Shown here: one piece after another, positions 15,515 through 19,653 of the stretch
Position numbering within the stretch: the first letter of the stretch is position 1
Layout of the letters: each line of letters opens with the position of its first letter
Origin: Streptomyces apocyni
GTDB lineage: Bacteria > Actinomycetota > Actinomycetes > Streptomycetales > Streptomycetaceae
Assembly (NCBI RefSeq): GCF_009739465.1
Contig: NZ_WHOM01000078.1
Coordinates: 51,230-115,229 of the forward strand
Reading direction: 5' to 3'
Length of the DNA: 64,000 nt
Notes under the pieces: model-generated
What the model was told of the DNA's origin: nothing
What the model saw: only the letters and a program-made list of their open reading frames with translations
Database searches by the model: none
Program-made: the position numbers and the translations under genes

Positions 15515-16645
15515 TCAGCTGATGGTCGCCGACCAGGCGCCGCGTTTGAGATGTGCGGTGCCGTCGGGGTCGATGCGGACGTGCGCGCCGTAGACGGGCA
15601 GGCCGCCCTCACAGTTGAGGCGGTGCCGGATACGTTCGAGTTCGTCCCACAGGCGGCGCGGCCCGCTCTGATGCACGGTGGGCGGGTCGGTCCACACGCC
15701 TGCAGCGCGCGCCCATGACCCGTCGGGGTGGAGCAACCACACGGTCCGCCGGTCTCCGTCGTCCATGCGCCGGTGCTCGACGCCCGGCACGGCGAGTTCG
15801 AGCATGGACCACACGTCCCACGCGTCCGGTACGTACAGCACGGGATACCGGCCGGTCGTCACCGCTTCCCCCTCCGCTGTCCTGGCCTGCTCGTACACCG
15901 CGTCGAGGCCGGGCGGGTAGTCGTCGCCATGGCGCGTGGCCATGAATCCGGCCGCGTCTGGCGTGATACGGCCAACGGCGCCGCCGTCGGGGGTCTTGTC
16001 CGCGGTGACGATCAGGCCCGTGCGGGCGATCGTCGTCACCAGGCGCCCGCCCGGCTTCAGCGCGGCCAGCCATGAGGCGGGAACGGGCTGTACGGACACG
16101 GTGGACACGATCCGGTCGTACGCACCAGGCAGGGGACCGGTGATGTCGCAGACGGCCACGCGCGGGTTCAGTCCGACGGATGCCAGCCGCTCGCTCGCTT
16201 TGTCGACGAGGGCGGGGTCTACGTCGATGCTCGTCACCTGCTTGTCTGTCAGGCGGCGACAGGCAAGCGCGGTGCCGTAGCCGGTTCCGGTCGTGACCAG
16301 CACGTCCGAGTCGTCCGCGATCACCGCGTGCCGGTACATGGTGACGACCAGGCTGGGCAGCGTCGAGGACGATGTGGGGTGCCCGCTGGTGACCTCGGCG
16401 CCGGGCTCGGCGTCGTCGGCGTGCAGCGGTCCCACGCGGGTCACGAGCGTGCCGTGACCGTACGCCGCCCGCGCCCACGCCTCGGGGTCGCTGGGGCCGT
16501 CCCGCAGCACCCACCGGTCACCGTCGTTCGCCCACCAGCGCGGCACGAGGACGTGCCGGGGGACGGTGGCGAGCGGCCCGTACCAGCGCGATTCGGGCCG
16601 GACGGTGTCGGCCGCCAGCCGCCGCGCGTGTGTCTCCCAGTCCAT
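15515..16645 (-). CDS. isoaspartyl-methyltransferase-like SAM methyltransferase
   Basis: A 376-residue protein whose central domain resembles protein-L-isoaspartate O-methyltransferase: LHADDAEPGAEVTSGHPTSSS, then motif I VTTGTGYGTALACR, VTSIDVDPALVDKASERL and LKPGGRLVTTIA. A long C-terminal region (about residues 250-376) ends with EGGLPVYGAHVRIDPDG, as in the methyltransferases that accompany peptide-maturation enzymes in Streptomyces. The ATG at 16645 lies 13 nt after the radical SAM stop with an AGCAGG site; an upstream start would overlap that gene. It probably methylates a peptide or protein, possibly the product or tail of the radical SAM enzyme. No ATP-grasp partner is present. Confidence 0.8.
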   Translation of the reverse strand: MDWETHARRLAADTVRPESRWYGPLATVPRHVLVPRWWANDGDRWVLRDGPSDPEAWARAAYGHGTLVTRVGPLHADDAEPGAEVTSGHPTSSSTLPSLVVTMYRHAVIADDSDVLVTTGTGYGTALACRRLTDKQVTSIDVDPALVDKASERLASVGLNPRVAVCDITGPLPGAYDRIVSTVSVQPVPASWLAALKPGGRLVTTIARTGLIVTADKTPDGGAVGRITPDAAGFMATRHGDDYPPGLDAVYEQARTAEGEAVTTGRYPVLYVPDAWDVWSMLELAVPGVEHRRMDDGDRRTVWLLHPDGSWARAAGVWTDPPTVHQSGPRRLWDELERIRHRLNCEGGLPVYGAHVRIDPDGTAHLKRGAWSATIS

Positions 16646-16658
16646 GACCAGCCTGCTT

Positions 16659-17603
16659 TCAGTACTTGGGGTTACAGGCTTCGGTTTCCGCGGGCGCGCA
16701 GTCCGAACCATCCTGGTCGGGGTTGCACGCCGTCACCACACCTGAGGAAGGCTGGCACGAGTCCTCTCGGGGAGTGCACGAGTCCGGGACACAGCCCCCG
16801 CCACTCCTGCGCGGAATGACGGCCATACGGTCGGCCCACTCAGGCCCGTTCAGGATCTCGGCGAGGGTCTGTGTCTGGATGCTTCCGGCCGTCAGCCACC
16901 GGGACATGACGCACGGCGTGACAACGCCGTCAGGGCTGATGGCCGCGCGGTCCGTGCCGCACCGGCCGCACAGTTCGGCCGGATCGTGAAGGGTGACGCT
17001 CACGCTGTCGCCGTTGCCGATGGCCCGGACCCGGTCGAGTCGGATTTCCCCGGCGACGCCAAGCCGCCGTAGCTCCGCGCGCGCTCCGTCGACGGCCTGC
17101 CCGTCGAGGACGTGCACGAGCGAGGCGCGTAGCGGGATACCGCGGCGGATCGCTTCGACGATGTTCGCCTTTGTGCGCGCGTAGGAGCCGCGCCCGCCGG
17201 TGATCTGCTCGTGCTCGGCCGCGTTGTCGCTGTAGTACGAGGTGGCCAGCGACACTCCGGTCCGCTCGAAGGTGCGCCACATCGACGGGCGCACATGCAC
17301 GAGGTTCGAGAACACCTCAACCCGCAGGCCAAGACTCAGCGCGCGGTCGATCAGTCGAGGCAGGTGGGGGTGCAGGGTGGGTTCGCCACCGATGTACTGC
17401 ACCATGCAGACGCCGAGCCCCTCGGCCTGGTCCAACAGCGCGAACCAGTCCTCCCGTCGCATGGTGCCGTGACTGCCGTGCGGTCCTGACTTGGCGTAGC
17501 AGTGTGAGGCGCAGGTGTTCTGACACTGGCCGGTGATCTCCAGCGCAAGCGAACTCAGCCGCTCTACGGGCGCATTGGTGGGGTTGTCGATGATGGCTGT
17601 CAC
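16659..17603 (-). CDS. radical SAM enzyme with Cys-X-Pro tail
   Basis: A 314-residue radical SAM protein. The cluster motif near the N-terminus is Cys27-X3-Cys31-X3-Cys35 followed by Tyr-Ala; the standard spacing is CX3CX2C. A SAM-binding GGEP motif is present (YIGGEPTLHPHL), and a SPASM-like half-site LCGRC...VVTPC follows at about residues 214-232. The last 44 residues hold six cysteines (271, 276, 283, 293, 302, 310), each followed by X-Pro, ending NPKY. The GTG at 17603 has a GAAGGAG site. The methyltransferase gene follows after 13 bp. Peptide maturation is the likely activity class; the substrate is unknown and no separate precursor gene is evident. Confidence 0.82.
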   Translation of the reverse strand: MTAIIDNPTNAPVERLSSLALEITGQCQNTCASHCYAKSGPHGSHGTMRREDWFALLDQAEGLGVCMVQYIGGEPTLHPHLPRLIDRALSLGLRVEVFSNLVHVRPSMWRTFERTGVSLATSYYSDNAAEHEQITGGRGSYARTKANIVEAIRRGIPLRASLVHVLDGQAVDGARAELRRLGVAGEIRLDRVRAIGNGDSVSVTLHDPAELCGRCGTDRAAISPDGVVTPCVMSRWLTAGSIQTQTLAEILNGPEWADRMAVIPRRSGGGCVPDSCTPREDSCQPSSGVVTACNPDQDGSDCAPAETEACNPKY

Positions 17604-17648
17604 GGTGGCGGACTCCTTCGCGTCGTGTCGTGCGCTGGCGCACCCGCT

Positions 17649-17705
17649 CCCCTGCCGGGGGTCTTGCGGTGTGGGAGAACCGTCAACAGGTCGCCCCGGC
17701 AGGGG
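17649..17705 (-). promoter_or_regulatory. strong inverted repeat before radical SAM gene
   Basis: CCCCTGCCGGGG (17649-17660) and CCCCGGCAGGGG (17694-17705) are perfect 12-bp arms with a 33-nt loop. It lies between the 30-residue zinc-ribbon gene and the radical SAM gene, so could terminate most transcripts, protect processed ends, or gate expression of the two enzymes. Confidence 0.55.
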
Positions 17706-17714
17706 GCGGAGTCT

Positions 17715-17807
17715 TCACAGGTAGAGCTGTCGCTTACAAGTACGGCAGTAGGTCTTGCCGTCGCGCTTCTCGGTCTTCAGGTGCTCACACGTCTTGGTCT
17801 GGGTCAT
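17715..17807 (-). CDS. zinc-ribbon microprotein (30 aa)
   Basis: A 30-residue frame starting MTQTKTCEHLKTEKRDGKTY and ending RQLYL. It contains CEH and CRTC, the four ligands of a small zinc ribbon. Its ATG overlaps the stop of the preceding gene as ATGA, which strongly supports translation. It is the last of three short overlapping genes before the radical SAM gene. It could bind nucleic acid or a partner protein; alternatively such a short Cys-containing peptide could be a substrate of the downstream enzymes. Confidence 0.6.
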   Translation of the reverse strand: MTQTKTCEHLKTEKRDGKTYCRTCKRQLYL

Positions 17808-18205
17808 CGCGCCTGCCCGGCCAGTAGAGCCGCGGGCAGGCGATCTCGCTTGCGGCGCGGTAGCCGGTGACGACCGCCGGGCTCGCCTACAGGCAAGGCA
17901 CTCGGCGGGGGTGCGTGCGCGGGCATGGTGAGCGTGGCGGACTGCGCGGCGCGGTCGGCAGGCGCGTCCCTGCCGTGCGACTGGACGCGCACCATGCGGT
18001 CAAGCTCCGCGATGCACGGGCCACAGGCGTACACGTCACCCGTCGCGCCGGGGGTGTTCACCGAGCCGACCCACAGCACGCGCACGCCGTCGCGTCGGCA
18101 GTACAACCAACAGACCCCGGCGACCCACGCGTTGCCGTCGCCCGTCTGCGCGACCAACGGCCACGCATCGCGCCACGGACGCTCGACAGCGGGGGCGAAC
18201 GTCAC
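17804..18205 (-). CDS. hypothetical protein with CGPC motif
   Basis: A 133-residue protein starting VTFAPAVERPWRDAW. Residues 25-75 contain paired cysteines (VCWLYCRRDGVRVLWVG and YACGPCIAEL), consistent with a small metal-binding or beta-rich domain; the C-terminal half is basic and Pro-rich. The GTG at 18205 overlaps the stop of the upstream gene (GTGA) and its own stop overlaps the next start (ATGA). I do not recognise a named family, but similar short proteins occur next to XRE/DUF397 genes in Streptomyces accessory regions. Confidence 0.65.
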   Translation of the reverse strand: MTFAPAVERPWRDAWPLVAQTGDGNAWVAGVCWLYCRRDGVRVLWVGSVNTPGATGDVYACGPCIAELDRMVRVQSHGRDAPADRAAQSATLTMPAHAPPPSALPVGEPGGRHRLPRRKRDRLPAALLAGQAR

Positions 18206-18528
18206 GCCGTGCCCCCGTTCGCCCGCACCAGTGCGACCCACTCTGCCGGGGGTTGCATGACCGCGTAGTCGCCGAAGTTCCGGCGGTAGCGCGTGTGCCT
18301 GGTCTCCTGGGTGTGCTTGCGCTGCCACTCCTCGACCGGTCCGGGGTGGCAGTGCGTGCCGGACCGCGCGCCGCATTCGGTTTCGTCGCCGGACACGCAA
18401 CGGGCCTCGTACTCCGGTTCCGCCGTCACGTCTTGCTCGATCGTGAATGGCACGTATCGAAAGACACGGCGGGCCTTCCGGGTCTCGCCTGTGTTCGCAT
18501 GGCGTGCCGCGCCCGCCTGCTGCTCCAC
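18202..18528 (-). CDS. hypothetical protein, possible DUF7848-like
   Basis: A 108-residue protein. Its central region reads YEARCVSGDETECGARSGTHC followed by PGPVEEWQRKHTQETRHTRYRR, a Cys/His-rich arrangement (C-x7-C-x6-C then His residues) suggesting a zinc-binding fold. It resembles short DUF7848-type proteins found in Streptomyces accessory clusters, a tentative link. The GTG at 18528 has a GGTGAGGA site. It is the first gene of the five-gene operon and is divergent from the XRE regulator. Confidence 0.6.
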   Translation of the reverse strand: MEQQAGAARHANTGETRKARRVFRYVPFTIEQDVTAEPEYEARCVSGDETECGARSGTHCHPGPVEEWQRKHTQETRHTRYRRNFGDYAVMQPPAEWVALVRANGGTA

Positions 18529-18646: not shown

Positions 18647-19471
18647 ATGCCAGCGCGTAAGCAGATTGACCCCTCGGAAAGCCTGGAAATGTTCCTGGGG
18701 AAGATGGTGGAACGGGCCAGGATCGCCAAGGGATGGACCCGGCAGAAGGACTTGGCGGACGCGGTCCGCGTCGCCCCCTCCCGCATCTCACAGATCGAGT
18801 GCGGCGCCGAAGCCCCCAACGTGGCGTTGGCCGAGTTCCTCGATGACGTACTCGGTACCGGTACGTACATCACCGACCTAGCGCGGATGATCGCGCGCAA
18901 GGCCATCCGGGACTACGCGCAGTTGTTCGTTGATCGCCAGCTCACCGCGCACGCCGTCCACCAGTTCGCCCCGATCGTGCCCGGCCTCATGCAGACCCGC
19001 GCATACGCACGAGCCTTGATGCTCGCTACCGACCCCAGTAACAGCGACGTGGACGACGCGCTGCGGCTCCGTATAGAGCGGCAGGAGGCAGTCACCCGTG
19101 AGAGCAGCCCGGTGTGGCTCAGTGCCGTGATCGACGAGGCGGGGCTACGCCGCACGATGGGCGACGCGGAGGCCCACAGGGAACAGCTCCGGCATCTGCT
19201 AGCTCTGTCCCAACGGGACAACGTCTTGATTCAGGTACTGCCGTTCACCGCGCCGAGCCCCACGGGAATGCTCACCTTGCTCGATCTGCCGGACAGCCCC
19301 CGATGTGCGTACGCTGAGGCTGCGTTCACCGGACGGCTCTACGAAGAACCGGCGGACGTGGCGCGCATGCAGCACACCTATGATCACCTCAGCAGCGAGG
19401 CCCTGAGCCGCCAAGGGAGCCGGGACCTCATCCGGAAGATCCTTGACAGCTACGAGGAGAACCACCAGTGA
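18647..19471 (+). CDS. XRE regulator with DUF5753
   Basis: A 274-residue regulator. Residues ~18-68 form an XRE helix-turn-helix (ARIAKGWTRQKDLADAVRVAPSRISQIECG); residues ~95-270 form the DUF5753 ligand-binding domain, with FAPIVPGLMQTRAYARALM and VLPFTAPSPTGMLTLLDLP. Its stop overlaps the start of a DUF397 gene by 4 nt. XRE-DUF5753/DUF397 pairs are abundant in Streptomyces and act as regulator and small antagonist, as in the WhiJ/BldB-type systems. It is divergent from the radical SAM operon and the obvious candidate to control it. Confidence 0.92.
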   Translation: MPARKQIDPSESLEMFLGKMVERARIAKGWTRQKDLADAVRVAPSRISQIECGAEAPNVALAEFLDDVLGTGTYITDLARMIARKAIRDYAQLFVDRQLTAHAVHQFAPIVPGLMQTRAYARALMLATDPSNSDVDDALRLRIERQEAVTRESSPVWLSAVIDEAGLRRTMGDAEAHREQLRHLLALSQRDNVLIQVLPFTAPSPTGMLTLLDLPDSPRCAYAEAAFTGRLYEEPADVARMQHTYDHLSSEALSRQGSRDLIRKILDSYEENHQ

Positions 19472-19653
19472 GTGACGCCGTACCGAACTGGCACAAGTCG
19501 AGTTACAGCAACGAAGCCGGGTCGGATTGCATCGAGGTCGCCGACAACTTCCCCGGTGTAGTCATGATCCGTGACACCAAGGGACACGAGAAGGGCACCC
19601 TGCACGTCACCCCGGACGCGTGGGCCGCGTTCACCGGGATGGCCAAGGAGTGA
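19468..19653 (+). CDS. DUF397 protein
   Basis: A 61-residue DUF397 protein: WHKSSYSNEAGSDCIEVAD near the N-terminus, VMIRDTKGHEKGTLHVTPDAWAAF in the second half. These are the typical DUF397 elements. The GTG start overlaps the XRE stop (GTGA), so the two are translationally coupled. DUF397 proteins pair with the adjacent XRE regulator and modulate it. Confidence 0.9.
   Translation: MSDAVPNWHKSSYSNEAGSDCIEVADNFPGVVMIRDTKGHEKGTLHVTPDAWAAFTGMAKE

Follow-up and report, generated by a model that had tools for sequence, protein, structure and literature searches.

We analysed a gene pair in a 64,000-nt stretch of DNA from Streptomyces apocyni (contig NZ_WHOM01000078.1, positions 51,230 to 115,229), hereafter the window, which is part of a 7.03-Mb assembly of 78 contigs. 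The pair encodes a radical S-adenosylmethionine (rSAM) enzyme and a methyltransferase resembling protein isoaspartyl methyltransferases (PIMTs) and protein aspartate methyltransferases (PAMTs). An earlier note on this DNA had described the region as a compact operon of three microproteins and these two enzymes, without a visible precursor. Our analysis centred on the C-terminal tail of the rSAM enzyme, which is rich in Cys-x-Pro (C-x-P). The features concerned are as follows, in positions of the window.

16659-17603, minus strand: radical SAM/SPASM gene, 314 amino acids
16812-17603, minus strand: rSAM/SPASM body, residues 1-264, with PF04055 and PF13186 over their cut-offs
16662-16811, minus strand: C-terminal Cys-x-Pro tail, residues 265-314, the proposed fused precursor
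16746-16793, minus strand: first tail unit, CVPDSCTPREDSCQPS
16662-16727, minus strand: second tail unit, CNPDQDGSDCAPAETEACNPKY, aligned with 34 other units
15515-16645, minus strand: PIMT/PAMT-like methyltransferase with a C-terminal domain, 376 amino acids

The rSAM protein scored 42 bits against PF04055 (cut-off 29.5) and 33.9 bits against PF13186 (cut-off 21.5). Its best solved relative was SkfB, both by profile (E = 8.5e-20) and by the fold of its structure model (E = 3.5e-15). SkfB is a maturase of a ribosomally synthesised and post-translationally modified peptide (RiPP), but it acts on a separate precursor, and the two proteins were 22% identical in the fold alignment. In the structure model, the predicted local distance difference test score (pLDDT) was at least 90 at 202 of the 314 residues, all outside residues 268-314. 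Residues 268-314 scored below 50, which is consistent with a disordered tail. In a contig scan of 421 relatives, of which the best 80 were retained, the closest named rSAM homologue came from Streptomyces pacificus, with 87% in its best-matching segment.

For comparison, 136 homologues were kept from 163 loci, after the removal of 7 duplicates and of 4 loci at contig edges, 15 whose body was broken or partial and 1 that lacked a body. One locus, L050, was kept among the 136 as having no partner and no motif, though its displaced methyltransferase and tail sit downstream. The cluster motif of the window protein was CX3CX3C (CQNTCASHC; 17499-17525, residues 27-35), not CX3CX2C. Sixteen homologues had CX3CX3C, 116 had CX3CX2C and 4 had neither. 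The tail unit EDSCxPS was present in 12 of the 16 CX3CX3C homologues versus 3 of the 120 others. A SPASM domain has seven cysteines in its folded domain; between the core and the tail of these proteins we found only C212, C215 and C231 to be conserved. In L062, the first cluster cysteine was lost (YQLTCPTLC), with the tail and the methyltransferase kept. Judged from its sequence, that enzyme is possibly inactive.

The tail cysteines stood in a context of their own. Among the 136 homologues, 646 of 665 tail cysteines were in C-x-P context, versus 2 of 920 body cysteines. None of eight other rSAM open reading frames (ORFs) of this genome (8 kept of 20 matches) had C-x-P in its last 60 residues. 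The tails also differed in length, and some comprised two or three similar units. In the 80 homologues linked to a methyltransferase, no unit was found in 4 tails, one in 56, two in 16 and three in 4; with a second unit pattern, more than one unit was found in 16 of the 80. The tail of L053 comprised two identical 21-residue copies, and those of L049, L068 and L073 had three units each. In five close pairs, three of them linked to a methyltransferase, dN/dS was 0.26 for the tails and 0.18 for the bodies. Of 74 units, 35 were aligned. The pattern by which units were selected demanded Asp-[Ser/Gly] as well as the C-x-P positions. Because of that requirement, the constancy of C-x-P and of the first Asp in the alignment is by construction. 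The unforced invariants were the second Asp (D9) and A17.

A cysteine-rich end of this kind might instead be a part of the enzyme that binds metal (Fe-S or another) in an unusual manner, with the true substrate encoded elsewhere. In SPASM enzymes the C-terminal cysteines serve as cluster ligands, the body has just three conserved cysteines after its core, and in the tail C271, C302 and C310 are invariant in one or both of our alignments. However, the cysteine count varied, from 1 to 10 in tails linked to the methyltransferase and from 0 to 14 in the remaining ones, and so did the spacing. The tail with none was that of L050, severed by an insertion. Units were repeated, in L053 exactly, three intact tails held just two cysteines, and a diverged homologue (L204, a contig-edge locus outside the counts) had no tail cysteine. 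Nor does ligand duty predict that an Asp motif should track the methyltransferase, as described below. We consider metal binding an unlikely explanation of the tail.

The methyltransferase scored 41.1 bits against PF01135 (PCMT), and a fold search placed its model nearest to the Thermotoga PIMT 1dl5, which is described as a PIMT bearing a C-terminal extension (PMC13001092). It has the make-up by which PAMTs are recognised, namely a PIMT-type methyltransferase with an extra C-terminal domain. Near the C-terminus, the window protein reads LNCEGGLP where some relatives have WxxxGxLP (the PAMT motif is WXXXGXP). Its start is most likely at 16645, at a conserved MDW 13 nt past the rSAM stop codon, rather than at the ORF start 16711. 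The nearest methyltransferase family was that of the TIGR04188 graspetide methyltransferases, at 246.4 bits and so under the cut-off of 380. The resemblance to peptide-maturation enzymes described in the earlier note was thus borne out, though below the cut-off. We also agree with it that ATP-grasp, dehydratase, transporter and protease genes were absent among the seven scanned proteins of the stretch, and the lack of ATP-grasp sets the locus apart from graspetide clusters. Several near methyltransferase relatives without an rSAM gene were preceded by an ATP-grasp-like C-terminus (by eye). One of these is a second, related methyltransferase in the genome of the window (G000:C32:104898-106031, L255). 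This genome may therefore hold a graspetide cluster as well.

Tails followed by the methyltransferase carried a particular Asp motif. The pattern CxP..D[SGT]..C was present in 76 of these 80 tails versus 5 of the 56 others (Fisher P = 1.2e-26, uncorrected for kinship), and any D[SGT] in 79 of 80 versus 11 of 56. When the tails were shuffled internally 1000 times with Cys and Pro fixed, the pattern appeared on average in 31.2 and at most in 46 of the 80, versus the 76 observed. The motif Asp was at position CX3D or CX4D, and the CX3D spacing is freyrasin-like. In another family (L264, L265, L269) the last Cys unit was lost, and Asp-Thr between two C-x-P was kept beside the methyltransferase.

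Such a correspondence would also be expected if the tail served for docking, bringing in the methyltransferase or a different protein while something else is modified, since a docking motif goes with its partner enzyme. However, Asp-Gly/Ser/Thr matches known or inferred sites of RiPP PIMT homologues (PMC13001092). The neighbourhoods also argue against docking: in 41 loci the neighbour families were XRE/DUF397 (26), the methyltransferase (23) and APH-like (10), and any other family shared by at least 3 loci reached 8 loci at most. A docking role is in our view improbable.

Loci without the methyltransferase often had other partners. By profiles, the 56 comprised 14 with a first APH-like kind, 25 with a second kind and 17 with none recognised. 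Pfam assigned APH to the neighbour in L105, of the second kind (PF01636, 26.6 bits), and gave no family for L067 (first APH-like kind) or L156. The neighbour of the second kind in L095 was an AAA ATPase (PF13304). L095, L105 and their relatives had very Cys-dense C-x-P tails followed by AAA ATPase and APH-like genes, in the members tested. A tail ending in [ST]..CxP[RK] was found in 13 of the 14 loci of the first APH-like kind versus 7 of the 122 others. Any action of the APH-like partners on the tail is conjecture. In six loci (L071, L075, L078, L202, L205, L206) a near-constant tail, CTPPQFLPMCGPCGPCVPSVGHCDP, occurred with no partner enzyme recognised.

We then consider whether a precursor is encoded apart from the enzyme. 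A core-unit profile built from the 35 units was searched in 297 genomes, with at most 30 candidates scored per genome. At E <= 0.05, 30 of the 297 genomes matched, with 37 matches listed. Of the 29 listed matches below 1e-5, 26 lay inside rSAM ORFs by their coordinates. The other three were in L050 (an interrupted rSAM gene), L194 (a broken one) and L193 (no rSAM gene). Among the eight weaker matches, three were inspected (L195, L240, L242), and the other five had E values of 0.015-0.04. This core-motif search of the 297 genomes found no separate Cys-containing precursor of the sactipeptide or ranthipeptide type. Likewise, no conserved small gene of the kind that encodes pamtide or imiditide precursors was found beside the methyltransferase in related loci. 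The earlier claim that no precursor is visible therefore held for separate genes; it did not hold for the rSAM protein, which bears a precursor-like tail. If the peptide is the enzyme's own tail, this could account for the failure to find a precursor gene next to this pair of enzymes.

A few loci had tails parted from the enzyme. In L050 (genome G044), a transposase-like ORF (IS30-type by eye) splits the rSAM body from the tail, and the motif survives beside the methyltransferase. In L193, L240, L241 and L242, tail pieces lie upstream of intact methyltransferases with no rSAM gene recognised, although a weak rSAM match (E = 0.00025) was obtained in L240. In L193, an ATG ORF preceded by a sequence like a Shine-Dalgarno site (MGKAKNTVSAAKN...) overlaps the tail but is read in a different frame. 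By its sequence, L193 may be either a precursor that has become detached and frame-shifted or simply a decaying gene. We discounted it as a separate precursor, as the closest start codon in a suitable position does not share the frame of the tail piece.

We infer that the tail is a substrate, and on the comparison of homologues this is quite likely, the firmest of our proposals. The enzyme tail was one of two substrate candidates in the earlier note, and it is the one that the comparison favours. Almost as firmly, we expect the methyltransferase to give aspartimide or isoaspartate. The sequences make it reasonably probable, at a somewhat lower level of confidence, that the locus is a two-enzyme RiPP-like unit whose precursor is the C-terminal tail of the rSAM enzyme itself. 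In such a unit, the rSAM/SPASM domain would first act at the Cys-x-Pro units of its own tail or that of another molecule. The most likely product would be cross-links, thioether or similar, by which small loops are closed; the assignment of thioether links in particular is tentative, at slightly less than an even chance. The methyltransferase would act second, after the loops at Cys had formed, and would methylate the loop-held Asp of Asp-[Ser/Gly/Thr], the ester then collapsing to aspartimide or isoaspartate. Most PAMTs are described as needing a cyclised precursor (PMC11285071). Finally, the tail might be freed by some general protease or might stay attached.

Several observations weigh against a fused precursor. 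The Asp pattern was written after the tails had been seen. The methyltransferase label changes four times on the tree of the 136 bodies, with three changes forced by well-supported branches, and a sign test on three independent pairs gave P = 0.25. In these sequences the association of the Asp motif with the methyltransferase is strong but comes from few independent events. Four linked loci were off the pattern, namely L057 (DDQS), L062 (DS with wider spacing), L196 (first C-x-P lost) and L276 (short tail). Among the APH-linked tails, five matched it (L051, L058, L059, L064, L270). Some tail cysteines behave as fixed parts of the enzyme: C271 and C310 were invariant in 21 aligned rSAM proteins and C302 and C310 in 62, while the body keeps only its three conserved cysteines after the core. 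These invariant cysteines, together with the constancy of the units that was built in by their selection, lowered our confidence slightly. Low pLDDT is no proof of disorder, the TIGR04188 score is below its cut-off, and the proposed chemistry is read from sequences and a structure model. No shared protease or transporter was recognised near the loci, with only part of the neighbouring gene families run against Pfam.

The remaining features of the locus are as follows.

17649-17660 / 17694-17705: perfect 12-bp inverted repeat, between the 30-aa ORF and the rSAM gene
17715-17807, minus strand: ORF of 30 amino acids, whose Cys/His spacing resembles, by eye, that of a small zinc ribbon
17804-18205, minus strand: ORF of 133 amino acids, accessory, sporadic in relatives
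18202-18528, minus strand: DUF7848 protein, 108 amino acids (PF25232, 46.2 bits), accessory, sporadic
18647-19471, plus strand: XRE/DUF5753 regulator (PF19054, 146.6 bits), divergent
19468-19653, plus strand: DUF397 protein (PF04149, 63.3 bits), overlapping the XRE gene

Much of the layout given in the earlier note was confirmed. The 4-nt gene overlaps are readable in the sequence as GTGA (18202-18205) and ATGA (17804-17807), the inverted repeat upstream of the rSAM gene is perfect, and the XRE/DUF397 pair is divergent. In addition, the 115-nt leader RNA folds at a z-score of -3.98, with none of 200 shuffles as stable. The five minus-strand genes were confirmed as well; the idea that the three small ones form a single system with the enzymes was not. 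The 30-residue Cys protein had been the other substrate candidate of the earlier note. The small proteins (30, 133 or 108 amino acids) do lie in the same gene run as the enzymes and are joined by the 4-nt overlaps. However, tblastn (E = 0.01) found the 30-residue peptide in 0 of 40 and 0 of 80 related loci, a search that a diverged peptide of this length could escape, and the 133-aa and 108-aa ORFs each in 4 of 40 and 3 of 80. The rSAM and methyltransferase genes were regularly found without them, the outcome that the earlier note had named as refuting its view of the small genes. We ruled the small genes out as substrates by conservation, the 30-residue query being a weak one, and think it very improbable that any of them is the substrate.

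The XRE/DUF397 pair probably controls expression. Of 121 related loci, 81 had an XRE match at some position. As the genome of the window has only 32 DUF5753 matches in 7.03 Mb, this rate is far above the background there. Homologues of the rSAM enzyme were found in 47 of 297 sampled genomes of the family (E <= 1e-30) and in 26 of 296 genomes of a class-level sample (E <= 1e-18). A phylum-level search (E <= 1e-45) matched 4 of 396 genomes and added nothing to the counts. Twenty-five plasmid records, 21 of them from Streptomyces, also had the rSAM gene (E <= 1e-40). In two plasmid records, a 'radical SAM protein' was followed by a 'protein-L-isoaspartate(D-aspartate) O-methyltransferase', as annotated.

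A set of 249 rSAM-PAMT pairs for which no precursor was found is reported in section 2.3 of Lee et al. 2023 (PMC10787088). The loci studied here appear to be these pairs, or at least to overlap with them. Both have an adjacent rSAM enzyme and a PIMT-like PAMT with an extra C-terminal domain and lack a nearby precursor; no substrate was found in that work, whereas we propose the rSAM tail. Pamtides and imiditides similarly combine a PIMT-like enzyme with a peptide that has a conserved Asp and is rich in Pro, at times also in Cys, but there a gene of its own encodes the precursor, and rSAM enzymes play no part. Precursors fused to their own modifying enzyme are described for borosins of types I-III, such as OphMA (PMC11285071), and fused burpitide cyclases are another case (PMC12186524). 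Borosins share only this layout with our locus, as their enzyme is a backbone N-methyltransferase and not a radical SAM enzyme. The 'fused precursor' of PMC7136475 refers to precursors joined to each other. In the main text of a 2026 review of aspartimide RiPPs (PMC13001092), the terms 'radical' and 'rSAM' are absent, and the available text of the open-licence literature searched yielded no rSAM maturase with a fused precursor.

These tails may belong to a wider RiPP superfamily, in which rSAM enzymes would carry modular Cys-x-Pro core tails and be joined by interchangeable second enzymes, with matching tails in each branch. From the sequences, we hold this view with some reserve, as a possibility not quite at even odds. 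In one branch a PAMT would act on Asp, and elsewhere APH-like enzymes would act, perhaps phosphorylating Ser or Thr. Multi-unit tails with swappable second enzymes would be of interest to peptide engineers. If the tail is the substrate, mining for separate short precursor genes would miss the class, and the 249 precursor-less rSAM-PAMT clusters (PMC10787088) would become testable.

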